Shown one piece after another: positions 2,103 to 21,047 of a stretch of 21,146 nucleotides of DNA. Made by a program: the position numbers and the translations under genes. Where the stretch lies: positions 1-21,146 of IMG/VR virus record IMGVR_UViG_3300032304_001097. One strand, written 5' to 3'. Every line of letters begins with the position of its first letter. Position 1 is the stretch's first letter. The notes under the pieces are model-generated. The model ran no database searches and had not been told where the DNA came from. It saw only the letters and a program-made list of their open reading frames with translations. This DNA comes from a virus.

Positions 2103-3430
2103 CGAAAAAGGCGACGGCCAAGCCGAGAACGCCGCGAGCTGGCAAGAAGCTCGAGCAGTACGCACTTCGTGCCCTTGCCGATCACCTGCCGATCGGTGCC
2201 ATTCTCCAGACCGACACAATGTCGGCGGAGGTGGCCGTCCGCGTCACGTGCATTCTCGCCTGCGTGCGGTTCATTGCCAGCTCGCTGTCGTGTATGCCAA
2301 CCGAGATCATCCGCCGGCGGCCGGGCTTCCCGAAAACGCACTGTCACGACCTGCCCTGCTACGACGTTTTGACATGGCGGCCTAACTCGTGGCAGTCGGA
2401 CTTTGAGTACAAGGAAACGACCAGCTACCACCTTGCCCTGTACGGCCGGGCCTACTCGCGGATCGTCGCCGGCGACAGCGGGTTTTGCTCGTCGCTCGAG
2501 CCGCTGCACCCCAGCCGCATGACGTGCATGAGAGGGGCGGAAGGGCTCATCTACCGATACCTCCTGCCGCGTGGCACGTACAAGGATTTCCAGCAGAGCG
2601 AGATCGTGCACTACCGCTGGATGAGCGACAACAGCTACGAGGGCCAGCTCCCCGCCGAGCTCTGCGCGACGAGCGTCGCGCTGGCCCGCAAGCTCGACCT
2701 GGCTGCGACGTCATTCTGGGACAACAGCGCGAGGCCCGACGGCGTGATCGAAACGCAGGAAGAGATTCCTGCCGAGGCTCAGGCCCGTTTCCGCGACCAG
2801 TGGCGGGAGATCTACGGCGGGCCGAAGAAGCGCGGGTCGACCGCGATCCTGCCCAAGAAAACGCAATTCAAGGCGATCGACAGCAACAGCAACGAAGCCA
2901 ACCAATTTATGGAGCTTCGCAAGTCGATGCTGCCCGACATCGCCCGAGTCTACGGCATCCCTACGACGCTGCTGGGCGACGACGCAATGGCGAAGTACAG
3001 CAACGTCGAGCAGGAGTTCGTGACCGCCCACGTGTTCGGTCTGCTGCCCTGGCAGAAGCGTTTCGAGGGCGCGATCGACAGGTCGATCCTGCGGACCTAC
3101 GACAACCCAATGGACGGCCGCCACTACTGTCGGCTCGACAGCCGGGCACTACTTCGTGGCGACACGCAGGCCCGCGTGGCGCTGTACCAGTTCCTCTTCA
3201 ACTGCGGCGCGATATCGCCCAACGAGCTGCGAGACCTGGAAGACCTTGACCTGCTGGAGAACCCAGCAGCGAACGCCACCTACATGCAGCTCGGCTTTGC
3301 ACCGCTGGGAACGTCGGCCACCGGAAACGCACCTGACGTTCAGCCTGACCAAACGCAAACGCAGTTTCCGGCCGACACGATCGAGCCCGAGGACGTACCA
3401 GACGCAGAAACGGAGCCGACCGATGCCTGA
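2081..3430 (+). CDS. phage portal protein, HK97 family
   Basis: Forms the dodecameric ring at the unique head vertex through which DNA passes and to which terminase and connector bind. The 449-aa product matches the HK97 portal family in size and layout. The segment at residues 275-335 is typical: NEANQFMELRKSMLPDIA, then YGIPTTLLGD, YSNVEQ and LLPWQKRFE, the conserved region where the chain approaches the tunnel. I place the start at the ATG inside the last codons of the large terminase (22-base overlap), because the protein then begins with a normal basic, flexible N-terminus. The frame stays open about 300 bases further upstream, but that stretch is only a shadow of the terminase gene. The C-terminus (about 405-449) is Pro/Thr/Glu-rich and probably disordered. 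Confidence 0.93.
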   Translation: MANNRAVTKKATAKPRTPRAGKKLEQYALRALADHLPIGAILQTDTMSAEVAVRVTCILACVRFIASSLSCMPTEIIRRRPGFPKTHCHDLPCYDVLTWRPNSWQSDFEYKETTSYHLALYGRAYSRIVAGDSGFCSSLEPLHPSRMTCMRGAEGLIYRYLLPRGTYKDFQQSEIVHYRWMSDNSYEGQLPAELCATSVALARKLDLAATSFWDNSARPDGVIETQEEIPAEAQARFRDQWREIYGGPKKRGSTAILPKKTQFKAIDSNSNEANQFMELRKSMLPDIARVYGIPTTLLGDDAMAKYSNVEQEFVTAHVFGLLPWQKRFEGAIDRSILRTYDNPMDGRHYCRLDSRALLRGDTQARVALYQFLFNCGAISPNELRDLEDLDLLENPAANATYMQLGFAPLGTSATGNAPDVQPDQTQTQFPADTIEPEDVPDAETEPTDA

Positions 3431-4130
3431 AAACGAAATCGAACGGCGCTACGTGCCCACGGTCGTCGAGCCGATCGAGCTCGAGGAGCGGTCCGCGGCC
3501 TCGCCGATGATCAAGGGCATCAGCCCGCCGTTCAATTCCAAAAGTGAAGACCTTGGAAATTTCCGAGAGGTCTTTGCCCCCACGGCATTCGACAAGGTGG
3601 TCGGCCGCCACCGGAACGACCCGCGCGGCGGCATGGACGTCGTGGCCCTGTTCGACCACGAAGGCCAGCCCATCGGCCGGACCACGAACGACACGCTGAA
3701 GCTGGCGATCAGCGAGCGTGGGCTCGCCTACTCGATCAGCCCGCCCGACACCACGCTCGGCCGCGACATCGTGACGCTCGTCCGCCGAGGTGACCTCTAC
3801 GGTGCCAGCTTCGCGTTCTCGGTGGCCCCAGGCGGCGAGCAGTGGACGCAGGAGGCCGACGGCTCGGCCGTGCGGACCATCAGCGAGGTGGGCAACCTGT
3901 ACGACGTTTCGGTCGTGACCCGGCCCGCCTACCCGCAATCCTCAGCCGCCCTCCGATCGCTGGAAGCGTGGCGGGCCGAGAACCTGACGAGCCACGAGCT
4001 CGAGCAGCTCGTCGAGCAGCAGGCCGACGCCGCGGCAGACAAGCGTCGCCGCTGGTCCTACGCACTGACAGCAGCGGCCGCGAAGCTCGTCTCTGCGAGG
4101 CTCAAGTCGAATGCTCCACGAATCAAGTAG
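3423..4130 (+). CDS. prohead maturation protease (caudovirus U35-type)
   Basis: Serine protease that trims the major capsid N-terminus and scaffold during head maturation. The 235-aa protein carries the features expected of the HK97-type prohead protease family: FDH at residues 77-79 (candidate catalytic His79), YGASFAF at 126-132 (candidate nucleophile Ser129), and LYDVSVVTRPAYP at 159-171, a characteristic family motif. The early stretch IKGISPPFNSKSE is also typical. The C-terminal third (about 180-235) is a charged helical tail. The start overlaps the portal stop by eight bases. In most HK97-like phages the capsid gene comes next, but here about 3.4 kb of small genes intervene. Confidence 0.92.
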   Translation: MPENEIERRYVPTVVEPIELEERSAASPMIKGISPPFNSKSEDLGNFREVFAPTAFDKVVGRHRNDPRGGMDVVALFDHEGQPIGRTTNDTLKLAISERGLAYSISPPDTTLGRDIVTLVRRGDLYGASFAFSVAPGGEQWTQEADGSAVRTISEVGNLYDVSVVTRPAYPQSSAALRSLEAWRAENLTSHELEQLVEQQADAAADKRRRWSYALTAAAAKLVSARLKSNAPRIK

Positions 4131-4278
4131 ATCGTGCCGCAAGTGCGGAAGCCGCTGCCGCGTGATCACGTCGCGCCGTGCAGGCGATGACCAGGTCCAG
4201 CGTCTGGAATGCACCTGCTGCCACGCCCGCCGGAAACGATTGGTCCCCGCCACCGAGATCTGGAGCCGAAAGCGATGA
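4111..4278 (+). CDS. small zinc-ribbon protein (55 aa)
   Basis: A short gene read directly from the sequence. The 55-aa, strongly basic product has C9-x2-C12, then C16, and a second cluster C34-x-C36-C37-H38, a layout that suggests a single zinc ribbon. Many phages carry such small zinc-ribbon proteins, and Mu Com is one loosely comparable regulator, but no function can be assigned here. The ATG lies inside the last codons of the protease gene (20-base overlap), with GCGAGG about ten bases upstream. The stop overlaps the next start in an ATGA. The coupling on both sides and the Cys spacing argue that it is real. A nucleic-acid-binding role is an inference from charge and fold. Confidence 0.7.
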   Translation: MLHESSRSCRKCGSRCRVITSRRAGDDQVQRLECTCCHARRKRLVPATEIWSRKR

Positions 4279-4631
4279 TCGCAGAAGAATCAATCGCCAA
4301 CGTGTCGGCGCGGCTCAACGTCTTCTTTGCGTCTGCCCGCGAGCAGGCCAAGGACGGCCTTTCGTGGCAGGAGTTTGGCAGCTTGCTCGTGCAGTTGCTC
4401 TGGATGGCCGTCGAGGGGCTGGACGCTGTGGCATCGCTGACAGGGCCACAGAAACGCGAGGTCGCCGTGACGGCCGCCGCTGTGTTGTTTGACTCACTGG
4501 CCGACAAGGCCGTCCCCGTGGCCGCGTGGCCAGCGTGGATGCTGCTGCGGCCGGCTACTCGCCTGCTCGTGCTGTCGCTCGCCGCTGGTGCCGTCGAGGC
4601 CCTGCTCAGAATCTCCAGGAGTTCCACATGA
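4275..4631 (+). CDS. unknown protein with hydrophobic C-terminus, possibly holin-like
   Basis: 118-aa product, not assigned to a family with confidence. The N-terminal half is amphipathic helix (residues 1-50). A conserved-looking middle reads LTGPQKREVAV, followed by LFDSLADKAVPVAAWPAW. The C-terminal third (about 78-113) is hydrophobic, with one or two candidate membrane helices around PAWMLLRP and LLVLSLAAGAVEALL. The start is the ATG of an ATGA overlap with the zinc-ribbon gene. The size, hydrophobic C-terminus and clustering with other membrane proteins are compatible with a holin or another inner-membrane accessory protein. The holin idea is inference only, since no family signature is certain. 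Confidence 0.6.
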   Translation: MIAEESIANVSARLNVFFASAREQAKDGLSWQEFGSLLVQLLWMAVEGLDAVASLTGPQKREVAVTAAAVLFDSLADKAVPVAAWPAWMLLRPATRLLVLSLAAGAVEALLRISRSST

Positions 4632-4909
4632 TCACCGGCCTACTCGTTCTCGCGGCAATCGCGTTCCTGTTTTGGCCCAAGGGCGGCGTTACGAATCCTC
4701 TGCCTAAATCTCTTTCGGCCGAGGATCTGTTCCGCGTTCCTCCAATGGCCACGCCGGCCGCGACGGTGGCCCCGGATGCCCGCGAGGCGATCGACAGCCT
4801 GCTCGAGGTCCGCGACCAGTTGGCGGCCGTCAAGAAGCTGGACGAGGAAGCATCCAAGGCAGTCGACACGCTCTGGCTCGACCTGCTGCACGGGAGCGAG
4901 AAGAAATGA
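4628..4909 (+). CDS. single-span membrane protein with coiled-coil domain (i-spanin-like?)
   Basis: 93-aa protein with one N-terminal membrane segment (residues 3-16, LLVLAAIAFLFW). A short Pro-containing linker and a heptad-like helix rich in Glu, Lys, Leu and Val (about residues 52-88) follow. This is the shape of an inner-membrane spanin: N-terminal anchor, periplasmic coiled coil. The next gene overlaps it in an ATGA and encodes a lipobox protein, which fits the usual i-spanin/o-spanin gene pair. The ATG has a near-perfect AGGAG about seven bases upstream and itself overlaps the previous stop. No spanin homology can be shown by eye, so the role is inferred from topology and order. Confidence 0.65.
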   Translation: MITGLLVLAAIAFLFWPKGGVTNPLPKSLSAEDLFRVPPMATPAATVAPDAREAIDSLLEVRDQLAAVKKLDEEASKAVDTLWLDLLHGSEKK

Positions 4910-5364
4910 ACGACCGCCAGAAATACATCGCCGTCGCGGTATTGGCCGGCGGCGCGGTGCTCGCGGCCTGCGTGGAGTATTGGCCGCGGCCTGCCCCCAG
5001 CCCGACACCCGCCGCTGGCCTCAACCTTCGCGGCAAGTTCATCGGCCCATCGGCCCCGGACGACGCCGCGGCGTTTGCTGGCCTGTGCCGCGGCGTGGCC
5101 GAGGCCCTCGACAAGGACGGGGCCGCAGCCGCCCCGCGGATCACCACCGCGGCCCAGCTCGAGGACGTCCGCATCGCCACGAGCGAGGGCATGTTCCTGC
5201 CCGAGAGTTTCACTCGCAATCAGCCGCACGTCTCGGCAGCGGCCGGTCGGTTCCTCGACCAGGCTGTCGGCACCAGCGGTGGACCGATCGACCCGGCGGC
5301 CCGTGGCAAATGGTGCGACGCTCTCCGCGAGCTGGCCCGAGCGGCCGAGGAGGCCGTCCGGTGA
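4906..5364 (+). CDS. putative lipoprotein (o-spanin-like?)
   Basis: 152-aa protein with a signal sequence ending in a lipobox, LAAC, at residues 19-22, so Cys22 would be the lipidated N-terminus. Val at +2 predicts outer-membrane sorting under the E. coli rule. After the Cys comes a Pro-rich stretch (PRPAPSPTPAAG), a common trait of outer-membrane spanins. The remaining ~110 residues form a mostly helical Ala-rich domain with no family I recognise. At 131 mature residues it is long for an o-spanin. It could instead be a periplasmic lipoprotein acting on the host envelope, such as an exclusion factor. The start overlaps the preceding membrane gene in an ATGA, and its stop overlaps the next GTG start. 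Confidence 0.65.
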   Translation: MNDRQKYIAVAVLAGGAVLAACVEYWPRPAPSPTPAAGLNLRGKFIGPSAPDDAAAFAGLCRGVAEALDKDGAAAAPRITTAAQLEDVRIATSEGMFLPESFTRNQPHVSAAAGRFLDQAVGTSGGPIDPAARGKWCDALRELARAAEEAVR

Positions 5365-5606
5365 AAATCTCTGACTTCGTCTGGGAAATGATGGACAACG
5401 CGCTCTACATCATGCACCTGTTCGCCGTGCTGTGCGTCGGTGCTTCTGCCGTCGCGTGCCCGGTGCTGCTGTACTCACTGCTGGTCGAGATCCGCGAGCT
5501 GCGAAAAGAGATTCCTGAGTCGTGCCAGTGCCGGAGCGACGGCCCCGGCCCAGTTCTGCCGCGAGTGCTTCCGCGTCTTCGCCGCATCGGCGAGGAGGCG
5601 GACTGA
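5361..5606 (+). CDS. small single-span membrane protein, GTG start
   Basis: 81-aa product with one long hydrophobic segment (about residues 14-44, IMHLFAVLCVGASAVACPVLLYSLL). A basic/acidic helix and a C-terminal Cys-x-Cys (CQC at 56-58) in a Pro/Arg-rich tail follow. I chose the GTG start because it forms a GTGA overlap with the upstream stop and has GAGGAGG about seven bases before it. An in-frame ATG ten codons later is the alternative. The stop overlaps the peptidase start in TGATG. No family is recognised. The size and single long helix are compatible with a small holin or a membrane partner of the neighbouring peptidase. Confidence 0.6.
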   Translation: MKISDFVWEMMDNALYIMHLFAVLCVGASAVACPVLLYSLLVEIRELRKEIPESCQCRSDGPGPVLPRVLPRLRRIGEEAD

Positions 5607-6670
5607 TGAGCCACCGCAAAGCGGCCTGGACATTCTCGGCGCTGGCGTTTGTGGCGCTGGCGGCCATCGTCGGCGCCGTCGTCGACCACTACACCCACCG
5701 CGTCCTGCGGCGCGTCGACAACTCGTTCGGCTACCGGCCCGACCCAGTGGGCGTGCGGACGTTCCTACAAGAGCTCGACCGGCCGACGTTCCGCGAGGCC
5801 GGGGCCGACGCCGTCCGCCAGGCCAAGGGCCTCGACGTGTTTCTCTACCGGGCGACGAACAAGGCCTACCAGCGGACCTACGGCGAGCCGTGGACCTCTT
5901 GGAATCAGGGCAACGCGGGGACGTGCGTGTCGATGGCGTTTGGCCTTGGATGCCAGACCGCCCTGGCGACTGACTGGCTGGCTGGCAAGGGCCAGCCGCC
6001 GATGGCCGTGGCCACCGAGCCGATCTATGGCGGCGCCCGCACGTTTGGGATGGGCCAGCCCACGCAGTTCGGCGGCGACGGTGCCACCGGATTCGGCGCG
6101 GCTCGCTGGATTTCTGGCAAATGCAAAACGCCGGACGTCGGCGGCGTGCTGTTCCGAAAGCCATACGGCTCGGTTGATCTGACGAGCTACTCGATTCCGC
6201 TCTCGCGGGAGTGGGGCTCGCGGGGCGTGCCCCTCGAGCTCGCCAAGTTGGCCCACCAGAATCGGTGCTACGCCGTTGCCCAGGTGCAAACGTGGGAGGA
6301 GCTGGCGTCCGCCCTGGAGTCAGGCTACCCGGTGGCTGTTTGCTCTCAGGTTGGGTACGGCCCGACGCCGCGGCAGCGTGACTCGCTCGGATTCCTGACC
6401 CGCGGGACGTCGTGGAGCCACGCGATGCTCGTCTGGGGAATCCGGCACCAAAAGAACGGCGGCGGCCGCGATGGTGCGCTCATCCAAAACTCTTGGAATG
6501 TGTCGTGGGTGGACGGGCCGCGGTGGCCGAGTGATCAGCCCGAGGGCTCGTTCTGGACGAGTAAGGAAAACATTGAAGCCGCCATGCGTCAGGGCGACTC
6601 GTGGGCGATCTCTGGCACCACGTTTGAATACAAGAAACTCGACAACGCCGACTGGGGGCTCGCTCAATGA
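5606..6670 (+). CDS. membrane-anchored papain-like (C1-type) cysteine peptidase
   Basis: 354-aa protein with an N-terminal membrane anchor or signal (residues 9-26) and a domain carrying the papain catalytic set in the correct order. Gln101 and Cys107 lie in NQGNAGTC, matching the papain Q-G-x-C-G-x-C region. His272 lies in WSHAMLVWG. Asn295 lies in QNSWN, matching the NSWG motif. Topology suggests the enzyme faces the periplasm or cell exterior. The start has a strong GAGGAGG and overlaps the preceding stop; the stop overlaps the next gene in ATGA. Phage lysis enzymes are more often amidases, muramidases or NlpC/P60 or CHAP peptidases, so a true papain-type enzyme in a structural operon is unusual. 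Roles to consider are endolysin-like, degradation of a surface protein layer, or processing of a phage protein. Confidence 0.85.
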   Translation: MSHRKAAWTFSALAFVALAAIVGAVVDHYTHRVLRRVDNSFGYRPDPVGVRTFLQELDRPTFREAGADAVRQAKGLDVFLYRATNKAYQRTYGEPWTSWNQGNAGTCVSMAFGLGCQTALATDWLAGKGQPPMAVATEPIYGGARTFGMGQPTQFGGDGATGFGAARWISGKCKTPDVGGVLFRKPYGSVDLTSYSIPLSREWGSRGVPLELAKLAHQNRCYAVAQVQTWEELASALESGYPVAVCSQVGYGPTPRQRDSLGFLTRGTSWSHAMLVWGIRHQKNGGGRDGALIQNSWNVSWVDGPRWPSDQPEGSFWTSKENIEAAMRQGDSWAISGTTFEYKKLDNADWGLAQ

Positions 6671-6897
6671 ACCTGATCCTGTGGGCAATCTTTGGTGCCA
6701 TCGTTGGCGGCATCGCCCGCGGCCTGCTGCCGTCGAAGCTGCCGACCGGCTGGCTGCCGACGATCGCCGTGGGCGTGGTTGGCAGTGTTGCCGGCGGGCT
6801 GCCATTCGGCACCGGCCCGGCCGGGTTTGTCGGCTCGATCATCGGGGCTGTCGTGGTTCTCTACTTGCACCGCATCTGGAGCGAATCGAATGTCTGA
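6667..6897 (+). CDS. GlsB/YeaQ/YmgE-like small membrane protein
   Basis: 76-aa, very hydrophobic protein with three short membrane segments and the Gly-rich pattern of the GlsB/YeaQ (so-called transglycosylase-associated) family: IFGAIVGGIARG near the N-terminus, a central VGVVGSVAGG, and GFVGSIIGAVVVLYLHR near the end. Family members are small inner-membrane proteins, often stress-induced, with no firm biochemical role. In a phage membrane cassette it could act as a holin-like pore or a membrane modulator; that is inference. The start overlaps the peptidase stop in ATGA, and the end overlaps the next gene by eight bases, so expression is coupled to the peptidase. Confidence 0.75.
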   Translation: MNLILWAIFGAIVGGIARGLLPSKLPTGWLPTIAVGVVGSVAGGLPFGTGPAGFVGSIIGAVVVLYLHRIWSESNV

Positions 6898-7168
6898 CGC
6901 ACAGAAGAAACTTGCCGTTGCCGCTGTCGTGATGATCGCTGCCACGTGGTGGCTGGCCACTGCTCCAGACTCACCGATCCGGCCCCAGCCGCCGCGGCCG
7001 GATCGCCCCGTGCTGCGATTCATTGCCCGCGTGGCTGGCGTGGCCGCACGATTCGGCCTGACCGCTCTGCTGTTTGCCGAGCCGGCCCCCGATGCCGATG
7101 AGGTGCAGCTCGCCCACGCGGTCGTCGGCACCGACGGCCATCTCGTTCTCTCGAATGCGAGGTGGTAA
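6890..7168 (+). CDS. small membrane-anchored protein with Pro-rich linker
   Basis: 92-aa product with an N-terminal membrane segment (about residues 7-24). A Pro/Arg-rich linker (about 26-40) comes next, then an amphipathic helix (about 42-62) and a short C-terminal domain ending in ALLFAEPAP and GTDGHLVLSNARW. No family is recognised. The start overlaps the previous gene by eight bases, and the stop directly abuts the next ATG. Topology suggests a short periplasmic protein tethered to the inner membrane. Confidence 0.55.
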   Translation: MSDAQKKLAVAAVVMIAATWWLATAPDSPIRPQPPRPDRPVLRFIARVAGVAARFGLTALLFAEPAPDADEVQLAHAVVGTDGHLVLSNARW

Positions 7169-7441
7169 ATGCACGCTCTGTGGCACTGGATTCTGTACGT
7201 GCTGGCGTGGGCGTCTCACGACCCGTCGAGCATCGCCGCCGAGCGTGCGAGGGCCGCTGGCTGCGTGACCGTGGCGTATGCGTCTCTGGCACAAGAGCCC
7301 GCCCGCGAGGCTGAGAAGCCAGCCGCACCGGCTGCCTGCCCCTGCGGTGGCAAAGGCTACGTAACGCGGCCTGACGGCTCACGGTGGGCTTGCAAGTGCG
7401 GCACGTGCCCCGACGGCAAGTGCAGAAAAAATCTACCGTAG
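7169..7441 (+). CDS. small protein with N-terminal hydrophobic helix and C-terminal Cys cluster
   Basis: 90-aa product starting directly after the preceding stop (TAA ATG), with GCGAGGTGG just upstream as ribosome binding site. An N-terminal hydrophobic helix (residues 4-15, LWHWILYVLAWA) is followed by an Ala/Glu linker. A Cys-rich end follows: C57-x-C59, then GKGYVTRPDG, then C75-x-C77-x2-C80-x4-C85. This looks like a small zinc-binding module of the CxC...CxC type. No function is recognised. It is the last gene of the coupled accessory cassette; an 84-base gap separates it from the major capsid gene. Confidence 0.6.
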   Translation: MHALWHWILYVLAWASHDPSSIAAERARAAGCVTVAYASLAQEPAREAEKPAAPAACPCGGKGYVTRPDGSRWACKCGTCPDGKCRKNLP

Positions 7442-7525
7442 AACGGGCCAACTTCGACGGCCAGCCGAGACCGGGGACAGTGTGCGAGTCGTTCACGACA
7501 CCGCTCCACATTCCCGAGGACAAAC
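7442..7525. other. intergenic gap before the major capsid gene
   Basis: The longest gap between the terminase genes and the capsid gene. It ends with GAGGA about eight bases before the capsid ATG, a credible ribosome binding site. I see no convincing -35/-10 pair. A capsid-specific promoter is possible here because the gene before is the end of a tightly coupled run, but nothing in the bases proves it. Confidence 0.35.
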
Positions 7526-8746
7526 ATGAACAAGCTCCGCCTGGCCCAGGACGAAATCTCCGCCCTCATCCCGCAGATCGAGAACCTGCGGAACGTCGAT
7601 CCTTCCGATGACAAGGACGGCGCCGCGGCGGCCGCCCTGGAAAGGGCGCTGACGCGTGCGGACGAGCTCAACGTGGTCGTGGAGCGCGAGAACGCGATCG
7701 AAGCCCGCCTCTCGGCGGCTCGGTCGAAGCTCACCAACGTCTCCGACAGCGAGCCCCGCGCCGCGGTCGAGAAGGGCGAAGTGACCGGCGACCGTGCGGA
7801 CATCCGCTCGGGCGTGAAGGCCTTCAGCTCCGCCAAGGCAGCCGCCCTGGTTGGTGGCTACCTCCGGCAGCTCTACACCGGCGAGATCCGGGCGATGGGC
7901 GAGACGTCCAGCACCTACGACGCCAAGGGTGCCGAATACGTCGTCACCGAGCTCTACAATGCCATCGTCAACCGGCTCCAGTACGCGTCGGTCGGCCTGC
8001 AGCTCGCCACGGTGATCCGGCCCGCCGGTGCCAAGATCAATTTCCCCAAGGTTGGCGACGCCACTGCCAGCTTTGTGGCTGAAGGCTCGGCGACGACCGA
8101 CCAGGACCTGTCGACGAGCGCGGCAGACCTGACCCTCTACGAGATGCGGGCCAGCGTGGCCGTGTCTCGCAGCCTGCTCGAGGACTCGCCGATCGACGTG
8201 GCTGGCCTCGTGGCCGAGCGGTTCGCTCTGTCCTACGCCCAGAAGTTCGACGCCACGTGGCTCGGTGGCAACTCGTCCAGCCCGTCCATCACCGGCCTTG
8301 CCGGTGCGGTGGCGGCTGGCAACACCATCACCGTCGGGGCATCGGCCGCGACCACGCTCAACAACCTGGCCGACGTGGTCGGCAAGGTCGACGAGACCGT
8401 GATGGGGACCAGCTCGTGGGTCGCCAGCCGTGCCGGCTTCGTCGACCTGATGAAGCTGTGGTCGGCCCAGCAGACGACCATGACGGTCGGCGGCGGCCGC
8501 GTGGTGCCCACCGTCTTCGGTGCTCCGGTCTACATCGTCAAGGGCCTGCCCTCGACGACGCTGGCCCTCTACGGTGACTTCGCCATGTCGACGGTGGTAG
8601 GCATCAAGGACACCGGCCTCGAAATCGAAGCCGGCCGAGAAATCCTGATGCGTAACCGCCAGGTGCTCTACGTGGCGAACACCCGGTTCGGCGTGGCCAA
8701 CCACGCCCCCGAGTTCGTCGGCCGGCTCGCCAAGGCTGCCAGCTAA
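7526..8746 (+). CDS. major capsid protein, HK97 fold
   Basis: Main shell protein. The 406-aa length fits the HK97 family with its N-terminal delta (scaffold) domain. Residues 1-70 are a charged coiled-coil-like helix. A flexible Gly/Ser/Ala-rich region (about 75-105) follows, in which the prohead protease would be expected to cut. The mature domain begins around residues 110-150 and includes AEYVVTELYNAIVNRL. Typical family stretches include AGAKINFPKVGDATASFVAEG (the strand/E-loop region) and YEMRASVAVSRSLLEDSP. The final MRNRQVLYVANTRFGVANHAPEFV matches the P-domain end. The exact cleavage site cannot be read from sequence alone. GAGGACAAAC precedes the ATG. Confidence 0.93.
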   Translation: MNKLRLAQDEISALIPQIENLRNVDPSDDKDGAAAAALERALTRADELNVVVERENAIEARLSAARSKLTNVSDSEPRAAVEKGEVTGDRADIRSGVKAFSSAKAAALVGGYLRQLYTGEIRAMGETSSTYDAKGAEYVVTELYNAIVNRLQYASVGLQLATVIRPAGAKINFPKVGDATASFVAEGSATTDQDLSTSAADLTLYEMRASVAVSRSLLEDSPIDVAGLVAERFALSYAQKFDATWLGGNSSSPSITGLAGAVAAGNTITVGASAATTLNNLADVVGKVDETVMGTSSWVASRAGFVDLMKLWSAQQTTMTVGGGRVVPTVFGAPVYIVKGLPSTTLALYGDFAMSTVVGIKDTGLEIEAGREILMRNRQVLYVANTRFGVANHAPEFVGRLAKAAS

Positions 8747-16255: not shown

Positions 16256-16642
16256 GTGGCCACAGAGTTCGTCCAGACACCGGCAGAGATGTCGATCGAG
16301 TGCGTGGGGGGCGACGAGCTCAACATCGGCTTGGCGTTCACCTCGGGCTCGACACCTATCAACCTGACCGGCTACACGTTCGAGGCCCGCGTCTATCTGC
16401 CAGTGTTCTCGAATCCCAGCGGATCAATGGCCGAGGGGGCCTACACGGTCGGCACAACGGCCGCCGCGTTCACCGTGTCGGCTGTTTCGCTTTCGGGCGG
16501 AACAGTAAACATCGGGCTCACTGAATTGCAGACGTCGGGGCTTAGTGCGGCGGTTGGCTACCGCTGGTATTTCCGCTGGACCGACACATCTGGCGTAACG
16601 CTGACCGTTCTATCGGGACCGTTCACGGCGAGGGCACCGTGA
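16256..16642 (+). CDS. small beta-sandwich protein, phage tail/baseplate accessory-like, GTG start
   Basis: 128-aa beta-rich protein. The pattern at residues 15-45 (ECVGGDELNIGLAFTSGSTPINLTGYTFEARVYL) resembles the N-terminal domain of phage baseplate upper and tail-fibre-associated proteins: Gly-Asp, alternating strand, then a Pro-Ile-Asn-Leu-Thr-Gly motif. Later strands read TVNIGLTELQTSGLSAAVGYRWYFRWTD and VLSGPFTARAP. AGGAG is seven bases before the GTG, so I accept that start. The end overlaps the long fibre gene in a GTGA, so the two proteins are probably made together as a complex. Exact family unproven. Confidence 0.65.
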   Translation: MATEFVQTPAEMSIECVGGDELNIGLAFTSGSTPINLTGYTFEARVYLPVFSNPSGSMAEGAYTVGTTAAAFTVSAVSLSGGTVNIGLTELQTSGLSAAVGYRWYFRWTDTSGVTLTVLSGPFTARAP

Positions 16643-18744
16643 GCGTAACAGTCACCGTCAACGGCAAGAGCGGCCCATCGGTTGTCGCCACGAGCGGCGA
16701 CACGATCTCGGCGAACGTGACGAAGAACACCGCCGTAAACGTCTCCGCGTCGGCGGCTGCAGCACCAGGCGGAATCGGACTGACAGGGCCGCAGGGGCCG
16801 CCCTCTACGACGATCACGGTCGGAAACGTCTCGACGCTCTCCGCCGGCAGCTCGGCCACGGTGGCCGCCACCTCGAGCAACAACGGGGCCAACCTGACGC
16901 TGGCGTTCGGCATTCCAGCCGGGGCCACGGGCTCCAACGGCATCACGCCTACCATCTCGGTCAGTGCTTCCACGCTGTCGGCTGGATGCCTGGCGACCGT
17001 CGCGGCCACGTCGAGCAACGGCGGTGCCAACGTCGCCCTGGCGTTCGGCATTCCGCAAGGCGCGACCGGTGCTGGCGGATCAAACCTGACGCTCTCCGAC
17101 GCCACGCCCGCGAATCTCGGGACGGCGTCAGCTGGCAGTAGCAATCTGGTGGCGAGAGCGGATCACGTCCACTCGCTGCCGGTGATCGCCTACAGCAACC
17201 TTTCGGGCGTGCCGGCAAACTTCCCGACAAACACGACGCTTGTGAGCGGACTGAATGCGTCCTACTCAGGAATCAACCACGGGCACAACTACGTCACCAG
17301 CATCAACGGCATTGCTGGAGCGTTGACGCTGGCACCCGGCCCCAACGTCACGATCTCGTCGAACAACCTGACGCTGACGATTGACAGTATCGGCGGCGGC
17401 ATCAGCCAGAATGATTCGATTGATGGCGGCGACTACATCGGGCAGATTCTGGGCGGGATCACGTTTGCCACGCAGCCGCAATCGCAGACGCTGACGCTGG
17501 CGGGATTCTCGCTCACGTTCTCGGCACTGAACGTGACCGCGACGGGCACGCCCAGCACATGGCTTCCAGACGGCGGCACGTTCGCCCTTAATGACAACTT
17601 ATCACCAGCATCAACGCTCGGCGCGGTGGCATTCAATAGCGGGCTGCTGGCGAACTATCGCAGGCTTGATGCGAACGGTACGCAGTATGCCGCTCTGTTG
17701 TCCTCGACCAACAACGGTGCGACTTGGACTGAAGCACTGCTGCTTGACACGGGTGGCGGCTTCGGCGCAGGCGCATTCGATATCTCTAGAAAGATATCGC
17801 TTGCAAGCAACGGAACGCGGACGCTGATAACCACGGGGATCAGTCGCGCATTCGACAGCCAGGTGGCTAACGCGGCACTGGTAATGAGGCGAGTAGACGG
17901 CAGCAATCTCAGCAACGCAGTACAGACGACGCAGCAGTACGCGCAAGTGGTGTATCTGCCGTCTGCGCAGCTGTTTCTAGCCATTGGGTTTTCAGGAAGC
18001 GCAATCTACCGATCACCCGACGGCGTTGCTTGGACGGAAATGGCGATTGGCGTTGGCGGCCCGCGGGCTCTGCACGTCGTCAACGGCATTGCCGTCGCCA
18101 TGCTCACAACTGGTGCCGTGCGATCAACGGACGGCGTGCAGTGGTCCTCTACGACCGTATATACCGACGAATACGGCACACCGGGCTATCAGTCGTCCGC
18201 AAGCAGTGCGACGCGAGTCGTGTGGATCGACAGTTCGGGCGTTGCCAGGTGCTCATCGGACGGATCTGCATGGGTGGCATCGTCCTCGGCCTCATTCGCC
18301 TCTCGCGTCACCTACGCTGCTGGCGTGTTCTGGGCGTTTTCGGGAACATCGTCTAGCACTGCACACACGTCGCCAGACGGCGTGACGTGGACTGCCCGCA
18401 CGCTGCCCGCTGCCAGCAGAGTCGTTGACGCTGCTGCGGCTGGTGCGTCTGGCCCTGTCGTCATCCTCGGCACAGCGCCTGCGTTGGCAACGGTGAGCGG
18501 TGCGACTGCCAGTGCCAACCTCAGCGTATCCGCAACGTCTGACGGCGGCGCTGCCGTCTCGTACCAGTGGCAGCGTTCGCTGGACGCGGGCACGACTTGG
18601 TCGAACGTCGCAAACGCAACCACGTCGTCGCTGTCGCTCAACCTGAGCACCGCAGACAGCGGTACGCGGTATCGAGCGCTGGCGAGTGCGACAGGCGCAA
18701 GCACGCTGGCGAGTCAGTCAGCAATTCTCACGGTCACGGGGTAA
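16639..18744 (+). CDS. tail fibre protein with tandem repeats, Asp-box repeats and Ig-like end, GTG start
   Basis: 701-aa host-contact protein. From the N-terminus: a short strand-rich domain (1-45); a collagen-like GGIGLTGPQGPP; two ~43-residue repeats, at about 58-100 and 104-146, sharing LSAG, TVAATSSN, GAN and AFGIP-GATG blocks; and then ADHVHSLP and NHGHNYV, a His pattern seen in trimeric fibre shafts. After about residue 350 come five Asp-box-type motifs (S-x-D/N-G-x-x-W), at about 355, 457, 494, 537 and 576, each beginning with Ser/Thr and ending in Trp. That implies a propeller-like region. The C-terminal 90 residues have the Ig-like YQWQRSLDAGTTWSNV. The GTG overlaps the upstream stop. 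Confidence 0.8.
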   Translation: MSVTVTVNGKSGPSVVATSGDTISANVTKNTAVNVSASAAAAPGGIGLTGPQGPPSTTITVGNVSTLSAGSSATVAATSSNNGANLTLAFGIPAGATGSNGITPTISVSASTLSAGCLATVAATSSNGGANVALAFGIPQGATGAGGSNLTLSDATPANLGTASAGSSNLVARADHVHSLPVIAYSNLSGVPANFPTNTTLVSGLNASYSGINHGHNYVTSINGIAGALTLAPGPNVTISSNNLTLTIDSIGGGISQNDSIDGGDYIGQILGGITFATQPQSQTLTLAGFSLTFSALNVTATGTPSTWLPDGGTFALNDNLSPASTLGAVAFNSGLLANYRRLDANGTQYAALLSSTNNGATWTEALLLDTGGGFGAGAFDISRKISLASNGTRTLITTGISRAFDSQVANAALVMRRVDGSNLSNAVQTTQQYAQVVYLPSAQLFLAIGFSGSAIYRSPDGVAWTEMAIGVGGPRALHVVNGIAVAMLTTGAVRSTDGVQWSSTTVYTDEYGTPGYQSSASSATRVVWIDSSGVARCSSDGSAWVASSSASFASRVTYAAGVFWAFSGTSSSTAHTSPDGVTWTARTLPAASRVVDAAAAGASGPVVILGTAPALATVSGATASANLSVSATSDGGAAVSYQWQRSLDAGTTWSNVANATTSSLSLNLSTADSGTRYRALASATGASTLASQSAILTVTG

Positions 18745-18747
18745 GAA

Positions 18748-20175
18748 ATGCCAAACAAGATCAAATTGCGCCGCTCCTACACCGCCGGTGCCGTGCCGCT
18801 GACCAGCGACCTCGAAACCAACGAGTGTTGCATTAACTACGCTGACAACAAGCTGTACGTGAAGACGCCCAGCGGAACGATCCAAGCAATCACGCTCGGC
18901 GGTGGTGGTGGCGGCTCGGCTAGCATCGTCACCGCAGCTACGGTCTCGGCGTTACCTGGCACGGGGGCCAGCGGCGTAATTTATGTGGCAACGGACACAT
19001 CTCGCGCCTACCAATGGCAGGGTGCGTACATTGAGTTGGGCGTAAGTGGTGGTGGTTCCGGTGGAGACGCCACAGACACAGTGCTTCGTGCATTGTTCAC
19101 GCCCGCCGCACCGACCGGCGTGACGGTGGCAGGCGGCAACGCGCAAGCGACCGTGTCGTGGACTGCGCCAACTGGCGTGATCTCGGCGGCTCCTGTCACC
19201 GACTATGTCGTGCAGTTCAGTTCTAACAGCGGCTCAACGTGGACGACTTTCAGCGACGGCACCTCAACTACTGCGTCTGCGGTGGTGACGGGGCTGACCA
19301 ACGGCACGGCATATGTGTTTCGCGTAGCCGCAGCGAACAGCCTCGGGCAGGGTGCGTTTTCGTCTGCGAGCGGTGCTGTGACTCCTGCCGCAGGCGACAT
19401 CATTCAGACGACGGCTGGCTTGTTTGCACGGTACGACGCATCGGAATCCAGCACGCTCTACGGGTCGGTGTCTGGCGGATCAGTCGCGTCCGCCGATAGC
19501 GTCGTCAAGCGTTGGGAGGATCGGTCTGGAAACGGCCGCCACGCTACGCTGCGAGCGGATGCAATCGATGCGTCCTACACAGGCCCGACGCTGAGATCGT
19601 CTTTCCAGAATGGACGGTCAGTTCTTCAGTTCGGCGTTGATGGCGGCGGGCTGATCGGGCTCGGCCTCGACGGCGTCGATGGAATGGGCCTGACGTCGAC
19701 CGGCGGCACGATATTTATCGTCGCCAAAGTAGACGCCAACAGTTACGGCGCACCGCTTGCCAAGGCGCAGGGGTCTTATCGTGGGTGGTGGTGGCAAGTC
19801 AAGCACGAGTACGGCGCGGCTTTTGTGTGGCAGCAGAGCGGCCCCGTGTTCTCTCAACTTTCGGCATCGACTGGCTACAACAACATTTTTGCCGTGATTG
19901 CAATGTCGATGCCAAACGGCAACCTTCCATCATCAGTGATGTACGTGAATGGCACGGCTGTCTCGACGTCGTATTACGCAGATGGTGGTGGCATTTCTGT
20001 TCCACCGTCAGGCAGCGACCGATTTACTATCGGCTACGCCAACCTTGGATCGCAGTCAAATGATTTACGATGGAAGGGGCATATCTGCGAGATCGCTCTG
20101 TATGACCAGCAGATTTCGTCCACTGCTATCGGGCAGATCAGCACGTTTTTGAAAACGAAATGGGGTATCGCCTAA
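18748..20175 (+). CDS. tail fibre protein with FN3 and ConA/LamG-like domains
   Basis: 475-aa fibre or tip protein. The N-terminal ~50 residues (IKLRRSYTAGAVPLTSDL, then INYADNKLYVKTPSGTIQ) resemble the common phage fibre anchor module that attaches to a baseplate. A Gly-rich hinge (51-57) and a short domain follow. One fibronectin type III domain (119-213) begins APTGVTVAGGNAQATVSW and includes FSSNSGSTWTTF and NGTAYVFRVAA. The C-terminal part (about 222-475) has RWEDRSGNGRHATLR and later strands, the layout of a concanavalin-like/LamG sandwich that could bind sugar. Its FN3 is very similar to that in the next gene. The ATG follows the previous stop by three bases. Confidence 0.78.
   Translation: MPNKIKLRRSYTAGAVPLTSDLETNECCINYADNKLYVKTPSGTIQAITLGGGGGGSASIVTAATVSALPGTGASGVIYVATDTSRAYQWQGAYIELGVSGGGSGGDATDTVLRALFTPAAPTGVTVAGGNAQATVSWTAPTGVISAAPVTDYVVQFSSNSGSTWTTFSDGTSTTASAVVTGLTNGTAYVFRVAAANSLGQGAFSSASGAVTPAAGDIIQTTAGLFARYDASESSTLYGSVSGGSVASADSVVKRWEDRSGNGRHATLRADAIDASYTGPTLRSSFQNGRSVLQFGVDGGGLIGLGLDGVDGMGLTSTGGTIFIVAKVDANSYGAPLAKAQGSYRGWWWQVKHEYGAAFVWQQSGPVFSQLSASTGYNNIFAVIAMSMPNGNLPSSVMYVNGTAVSTSYYADGGGISVPPSGSDRFTIGYANLGSQSNDLRWKGHICEIALYDQQISSTAIGQISTFLKTKWGIA
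19102..19386 (+). repeat. FN3 module, copy A
   Basis: Nucleotides encoding the FN3 domain of the first FN3 fibre gene. Copy B is at 20313-20597. The two share long near-identical runs, for example TGCAGTTCAGTTCTAA and CTGACCAACGGCACGGC, more similarity than function alone would need. Both keep the same domain boundaries, so the module appears to have moved or duplicated as a unit. Confidence 0.75.
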
Positions 20176-21047
20176 TGCCACTCTCGCCACCAGCATCCCC
20201 AACAGTCGGACAGACCTACGCTGCCAGCGGGCGAACATGGTCGTGGACAGGGTCAGCTTGGGAACTCGTCGCATCTGCCGGAACCTCCGACTCCCGGTGG
20301 GACTTGTTTCTGCCAGCCGCGCCAACCGGCCTCACTGCGACCGGAGCCAACGCGCAGGCAGCACTGACATGGACGGCACCAACAGGCGTGATCGCGCAGG
20401 CACCGATCACTGACTACACGGTGCAGTTCAGTTCTAATAGCGGCTCGTCTTGGACGACCTTCACACGGGCTGCATCGACGGCAACGAGTGCGACTGTTAC
20501 ATCGCTGACCAACGGCACGGCGTATGTGTTTCGCGTGGCGGCGATTAACGGCATTGGTAATGGTGCTTATACGGCAGCGAGTGGCAGCGTCACGCCAAGT
20601 GCGTCCAGCCTTACGGTCAGTCCATCCAGCGGCACCGCCGATATCGGCACAGCTTACTCATGGAGCGGCGCAGGCACGGCAGCAAGCCCTCTGGAGACTA
20701 GCGATGCCGCCTCGCCTAACGGAATTACGTGGACTTATGGAGGCGGCGCAAACACTTATGACCTCTGGCAGTTTACTTGCGGGGTTTCTGGCACTCTAAC
20801 ATTTGAGCTTGGTGGCGGTTTCGATGGTGACGGCGGCGCTGAGCGACCGAGTTTTGAGCGATACCTCCGCAACGGCGTGCAGTCTACGACTTTTGTTGGT
20901 GGTACGACGAATTTGGGGGATCATTACATACGCAGGTCTATAAGCGTCTCTGCTGGAGATGTTATACGACTTGGACGAGCCTCGCCTTTCTTCGGGTTTG
21001 CAGGCAGCGAAACGCTAAAAGGAAAAATCCGGCTTTGGATTTCATAG
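20175..21047 (+). CDS. tail fibre/tip protein with FN3 domain
   Basis: 290-aa protein. The N-terminus carries SPTVGQTYAASGRTWSWTGSAWELV, a short module often found at the start of phage fibre subunits (Gly-Gln-Thr-Tyr, then W-x-W-x-G-x-x-W). One FN3 domain follows (47-141), very close to that of the gene before. The last ~150 residues are beta-rich and contain TWTYGGGANTYDLWQFTCG and a Gly-rich GGGFDGDGGAERPSFERYLR, with no recognised family. The last third is more A+T-rich than the FN3. The ATG makes a TAATG overlap with the previous stop. Confidence 0.75.
   Translation: MPLSPPASPTVGQTYAASGRTWSWTGSAWELVASAGTSDSRWDLFLPAAPTGLTATGANAQAALTWTAPTGVIAQAPITDYTVQFSSNSGSSWTTFTRAASTATSATVTSLTNGTAYVFRVAAINGIGNGAYTAASGSVTPSASSLTVSPSSGTADIGTAYSWSGAGTAASPLETSDAASPNGITWTYGGGANTYDLWQFTCGVSGTLTFELGGGFDGDGGAERPSFERYLRNGVQSTTFVGGTTNLGDHYIRRSISVSAGDVIRLGRASPFFGFAGSETLKGKIRLWIS
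20313..20597 (+). repeat. FN3 module, copy B
   Basis: Second copy of the FN3 module, inside the following fibre gene; partner at 19102-19386. At the protein level both read APTG near the start, NAQA, WTAPTGVI, FSSNSGS-WTTF and LTNGTAYVFRVAA. Divergence is concentrated near the ends and in the third quarter of the domain, consistent with one duplication followed by drift. Confidence 0.75.

Follow-up and report, generated by a model that had tools for sequence, protein, structure and literature searches.

In phage lambda, the lysis genes follow the late regulator and precede the small terminase gene (TerS), and lambdoid phages keep their lysis genes there. Such a cassette is compact, its overlapping genes encoding small membrane proteins and one hydrolase. 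Other described systems with points of likeness to the locus reported here are the signal-arrest-release (SAR) endolysins (P1 Lyz, phi21 R, and Mu gp22) and mycobacteriophage lysin A, in which the N5 domains set a precedent for lysins that contain a papain-family domain (PMC3314691). In the literature searched, no paper on planctomycete phages was found, nor anything directly comparable to a cassette within a head operon. Here we describe a block of nine small genes, g1 to g9, in IMG/VR virus record IMGVR_UViG_3300032304_001097. The window (i.e., the whole stretch analyzed, 21,146 bases) is the entire record, a 21-kb contig, and its source genome is thus probably incomplete. Eight of the genes, g2–g9, form a transferable unit. 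We put at roughly 70% the probability that this unit is a late lysis module of temperate planctomycete phages with the papain-like peptidase g6 as its lysin; it would be a phage lysis module in kind, but one whose enzyme, partners, host group, and position are new. An earlier note on the window had likewise leaned towards lysis, a reading that we infer from context, content, and the lack of alternatives.

An eight-gene unit at two sites in planctomycete phages

Gene order in the window is that of an HK97-type head operon, i.e., TerS (47-538), large terminase TerL (489-2102), portal (to 3430), S78 protease (3423-4130), and capsid (7526-8746), with g1–g9 as the sole interruption; head-tail, tape-measure, and tail genes lie beyond the capsid. 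The features are as follows.

3423..4130, + strand: prohead protease (S78, HK97 type; Pfam Peptidase_S78 E 1e-35; NCBIfam proheadase_HK97 above cut-off); left neighbour, outside the module
4111..4278, + strand: g1, 55-aa zinc-ribbon-like protein (CxxC...CxxC); pN/pS 0.00-0.25; no Pfam family; outside the mobile unit
4275..4631, + strand: g2, 118-aa helical protein with no signal sequence; opens the unit and is its most widely shared gene (types A and B; alignment A3)
4628..4909, + strand: g3, 93 aa, transmembrane (TM) residues 1-19, accessory; N-terminal span in 45/49 relatives
4906..5364, + strand: g4, 152-aa membrane-anchored exported protein, core; N-terminal span in 130/145 relatives
5361..5606, + strand: g5, 81 aa, GTG start, TM residues 20-38, accessory; one span in 35/35 relatives
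5606..6670, + strand: g6, 354 aa, papain-like cysteine peptidase with a signal anchor (active site Q101, C107, H272, N295), core, proposed lysin
6667..6897, + strand: g7, 76 aa, two or three membrane spans, accessory; distantly GlsB/Transgly_assoc-like
6890..7168, + strand: g8, 92 aa, N-terminal membrane span, core; exported tail ends NARW / HGRGW, a motif across relatives
7169..7441, + strand: g9, 90 aa, core; weakly hydrophobic N-terminus, Cys-cluster tail CPCGGKGY...CKCGTCPDGKC
7526..8746, + strand: major capsid protein (HK97-type, from relatives); right neighbour outside the module, 84 nt after g9

The extent of the unit is defined by two relatives, L008 and L011, which carry an intact g2-g3-g4-g5-g6-g7-g8-g9 (g6 is 89-90% identical to that of the window) in the order RusA, two genes, a small regulator-like gene (c15), g2–g9, HNH, TerS, TerL, portal, protease, g1 relative, and capsid. 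Their TerL is merely 35-38% identical to that of the window, and their protease-capsid gap of 213 nt holds the g1 relative alone (E 4e-16). Comparison with the window thus reveals g2–g9 as a unit occupying one site or the other, and g1, which stays with protease and capsid while the block lies elsewhere, as a head-operon gene. The claim that all nine genes form one system accordingly stands for a colinear block that recurs as a unit, but for eight genes rather than nine. Nearly all relatives with the window-type head operon, down to ~37% capsid identity, carry the block in the protease-capsid gap, and its portrayal as an insertion therefore fails in the sense of a recent event in the window lineage; in other relatives, the head operon near the block is unrelated or absent. 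Glycosyltransferase-like genes and a radical-SAM-like gene adjoin the block in terminase-side phages (L008:1203-2713; L018:7171-8043; L025:3846-4697).

The ~3.3 kb of coupled genes that the earlier note saw splitting protease from capsid measures 3,395 nt (from 4130 to 7526) and contains nine open reading frames (ORFs), with the junction types it had listed: a 20-nt protease/g1 overlap, ATGA at g1/g2, g2/g3, g3/g4, and g6/g7, GTGA at g4/g5, TGATG at g5/g6, an 8-nt overlap at g7/g8, and direct abutment at g8/g9. Across relatives, gaps of ≤4 nt make up 89% of junctions within the block versus 58% for other neighbours from the same gene caller. Between the window and relative L012, the ratio of nonsynonymous to synonymous polymorphism (pN/pS) is 0.00-0.31 for all nine genes (protease, 0.22; capsid, 0.18); synonymous changes dominate throughout, and the ORFs are therefore real. 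The tight packing of the junctions exceeds chance. Around the block in the window, no site resembling a promoter was detected; terminator-like sites were above shuffled sequences but mostly within coding sequence, and were not used.

Relatives number at least 485 for g2 and at least 547 for g6 in IMG/VR, and close relatives of g6 occur in 45 viral contigs, with the same gene order in nearly all that reach far enough; the genes come together in one colinear order rather than singly or at random places. A type-A core of g2-g4-g6-g8-g9 recurs throughout, with g4 and g6 each present in all 84 long type-A loci, g8 in 82, and g9 in 78, alongside the optional g7 (48), g3 (43), and g5 (32). A papain-like enzyme (g6, or the probably papain-like B58 of the type B set described below) is encoded in 180 of 202 g2 loci; in the other 22 a contig end interrupts the locus, and no locus is without the enzyme for any other reason. 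These loci were made distinct by sequence, some fetched loci being from the same contig, and the set was partly gathered through g6 or B58. The scan with g2 alone, covering the best 80 of 485 relatives, is the fairer sample; it gave 54 loci with g6, 20 cut by a contig end, and 2 in which the enzyme was not called. Mergers of g4 with g8 in single-linkage clusters, and of B55 with B57 in clustering, were taken as artefacts. No relatives of g2, g4, or g6 were found among 50,697 isolated-phage records. The unit is common, and could serve as a marker for planctomycete phages.

The host group follows from chromosomal relatives. Three genome bins holding block relatives contain 25 to 73 copies of the planctomycete-typical PF07596 (0 of 14 control genomes), and a g6 relative (E ≤1e-20) is encoded in 11 of 392 planctomycete genomes. 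In G361 (on a 6.4-Mb contig) and G143, the block lies just upstream of prophage TerL, portal, and capsid genes, and consists of g2, a membrane gene, g4, g6, a g8-like gene, and a g9-type protein, the tail of which in G361 is a thioredoxin-like domain (E 7.5e-8). A distant version is found in G411 and G321 (L360/L361, L373-L376), with a g4-like proline-rich protein bearing a true lipobox (LLPGC); upstream in G321 are three small membrane-type proteins, one with a coiled tail. This layout is nearer to a holin/spanin arrangement than is that of the window. Separately, contig L114, binned as Alphaproteobacteria, carries a capsid (69%) and block genes of the window phage family, and is probably mis-binned.

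The papain-like peptidase and its partners

The AlphaFold (AF2) model of g6 (pLDDT 84, pTM 0.82) has xylellain and cathepsins as its nearest solved structures (Foldseek, xylellain 3ois, E 2e-9, probability 1.00). With xylellain and cathepsin B/L (papain family C1) it shares the fold and the Q-C-H-N active site, which is invariant in aligned relatives (Q 136/136, C 136/136, H 145/145, N 146/146); it differs from them in its ~12-19% identity and in being a membrane-anchored phage protein with its own conserved N-terminal region. An N-terminal span is present in 118 of 132 near full-length relatives, with basic residues on its N-side (mean charge +1.3; N-in/C-out), and the membrane-anchored papain-like peptidase announced in the earlier note is hence borne out. 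No Pfam family was matched above cut-off (best profile match cathsilicatein, E 0.0067); g6 is predicted to work like a C1 peptidase, the likeness being one of fold only. Among its viral structural neighbours are papain-like phage proteins that bear muramidase or peptidoglycan-binding annotations. A relative of g6 with 36% identity also occurs at L113:10001-10723 in the Bacteroidota genome Mucilaginibacter pankratovii, the family thus extending past planctomycetes.

Like SAR endolysins, g6 has N-terminal basic residues and one span with many Gly, Ala, Ser, or Thr residues (median 42%) in front of a putatively exported hydrolase, and other small membrane proteins lie near the SAR endolysin of Mu (PMC9239132), as they do around g6. 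Unlike them, its span has a median Kyte-Doolittle (KD) value of 2.15, not clearly weakly hydrophobic, and its catalytic domain is papain-like rather than that of a lysozyme, transglycosylase, or amidase. With the N5 domain, g6 shares a papain-family domain in a phage lysis enzyme (a role proposed for g6); N5, however, belongs to a modular multidomain lysin, whereas g6 is membrane-anchored and single-domain, and the two are likened by family. In L040, the g6 anchor is 95-100% identical to that of the window up to about residue 60 and the neighbouring block genes are 86-98% identical, whereas the catalytic domain is ~40% identical, from which it follows that the catalytic domain alone was exchanged; L047 shows the same exchange, breaking near residue 60-72, and there too the anchor and neighbouring genes have hardly changed.

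Spans or export signals are found on most products of the block, and its description as a membrane cassette holds to that extent, g9 having no confident membrane span by hydropathy. At least one hydrophobic span occurs in 146 of 182 g2 relatives, most of which have hydrophobic or amphipathic helices; none reaches threshold in the window copy, and g2 has no Pfam or PHROG family match. We regard g2 as a candidate holin-like protein. Holin-family profiles matched none of g2, g3, g5, g7, B60, and B61. The window g4 does carry the lipobox-like motif (LAAC) for which it had been called a lipobox protein, but such a motif is found in just 14 of 145 relatives; g4 as a lipoprotein o-spanin of the two-component type is therefore rejected, although the distant G411/G321 relatives carry the motif. 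An i-spanin would have an N-in span and a periplasmic coiled coil; for g3, the charge pattern suggests N-out/C-in with a cytoplasmic helical tail. The GlsB label given to g7 is weak: window g7 matches Transgly_assoc at E 0.061 (14 bits, under the 25.3 cut-off) and NCBIfam PRK10457 at E 1e-6 (29 bits versus a cut-off of 129), but its relative in the complete phage G014 matches Transgly_assoc at E 1.6e-5.

In L075 and L077, g2 is kept and a type B set stands in place of g3–g9: B55, membrane protein B56, anchored B57, B58, B59, and small membrane proteins B60 and B61. B58 (relatives in 96 contigs) is without an anchor and has invariant Q77, C83, H235, and D253. Its model is of low confidence (pLDDT 50) with weak best structural matches (E 0.014; xylellain, C39 domain), and profile comparison detected no homology between g6 and B58; B58 is probably papain-like. 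B59 is a secreted trypsin-like protease (Trypsin_2, E 3e-21). A signal-less enzyme with small membrane proteins and a secreted trypsin-like protease would suit an enzyme released by a holin.

A probable role in host lysis, and rival readings

A role in lysis is suggested by relative G014, a complete circular genome of 31,979 bp (it ends in a 127-bp direct repeat) with a capsid 96% identical to that of the window. Its other genes are for packaging, head, tail, integrase, recombination, and replication, and no peptidoglycan hydrolase or holin elsewhere in G014 was among the matches listed (39 proteins; 25 of 26 Pfam and 25 of 106 PHROG families, the PHROG negative being partial). Amidase_2, Phage_lysozyme, Peptidase_M23, and CHAP were each found in 0 of 19 contigs, with positive controls working. 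The absence of an endolysin elsewhere in the window, remarked on in the earlier note, is thus extended to a circular relative in which no normal lysis cassette was recognized, leaving the block as its sole visible lysis candidate. Position points the same way, as the L008/L011 site between late regulator and terminase matches that of the lambda lysis genes and the block lies directly upstream of TerL in planctomycete prophages. Also counting for lysis are the papain-like enzyme in every one of the 202 g2 loci not cut by a contig end, the fold, invariant tetrad, and anchor of g6, and the catalytic-domain swap in L040, endolysins being modular in like manner. Planctomycete sacculi contain lysozyme-sensitive peptidoglycan (PMC4432640), making its peptides a natural substrate for g6.

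At the end of infection, g6 would be inserted by its N-terminal anchor with the catalytic domain outside the inner membrane, where it would cut wall peptide bonds, either in stem or cross-link peptides of peptidoglycan or in wall-associated protein. The candidate holin-like g2 and the small membrane proteins g3, g5, and g7 may permeabilize the membrane or trigger g6, with g4, g8, and g9 as exported partners that would help to disrupt the outer envelope, a spanin-like job.

Several points weigh against a lysis module. Although compact like a lambda-type cassette, with overlapping genes for small membrane proteins and one hydrolase, g2–g9 match no holin, spanin, or endolysin family by profile; eight genes are a large number for such a cassette, the hydrolase is papain-like, and in the window the block has the protease on one side and the capsid on the other. 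The likeness to the lambda order is an argument from position, and just one relative (G014) is demonstrably complete. Moreover, papain-family enzymes mostly act on protein, and for a lysozyme-sensitive wall (PMC4432640) a muralytic enzyme would be expected. With its trypsin-like and thioredoxin-like members, the system hints rather at a protein substrate in the envelope. We tentatively raise a rather doubtful possibility: that planctomycete phages open the host not by a muralytic enzyme but by exported proteases (papain-like; trypsin-like in type B), with thioredoxin-like/Cys-cluster proteins loosening a protein-rich, possibly disulphide-linked envelope.

Placement among head genes, together with the protease character of g6 and B59, would also fit a module carried in the virion, in which g6 and its partners digest envelope protein at entry. 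Most products, however, bear N-terminal anchors or export signals, which sets them apart from proteins inside the head. The unit is also found next to another type of head operon, upstream of the terminase, and G014 would be left without recognized lysis genes; we judge this improbable. No better are the prospects of superinfection exclusion or host-surface modification (lysogenic conversion) by the exported proteins. That a temperate phage (integrase in G014; prophages) encodes membrane and exported proteins is in keeping with it, but 1-4-nt overlaps inside a late head operon with no promoter-like site found would make expression in a lysogen odd, and here too the phage would lack recognized lysis genes; exclusion systems do not usually depend on a papain-like enzyme. 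Least likely is a set for head assembly or maturation at the membrane, in which g6 would be a second maturation protease: the block does fill precisely the protease-capsid gap in nearly all relatives with the window-type head operon, yet in L008/L011 only g1 separates these two genes and the block is found elsewhere, and the N-terminus of the capsid protein resembles a delta/scaffold domain of its own. If g2–g9 are indeed a lysis module, they would provide a first concrete candidate for planctomycete-phage lysis, in a group with a long-disputed wall, and an instance of a lysis cassette working inside a head operon; a substrate that proved to be protein would make this a new lysis strategy.

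Neighbouring head and tail genes

In many relatives, the prohead protease ends in an additional HAD-hydrolase-like domain (SLDYDRTFTAAPG...; L075:3763-4767, L077:4452-5423, and G014 at L115:1665-2675), which the window protease lacks. In the tail region of the window (16639-21047), successive genes contain a repeated fibronectin-III-like module (AAPTG-T--GNAQA--SWTAPTGVI...DYTVQFSSNSGS-WTTF), which suggests duplication or exchange of receptor-binding parts.

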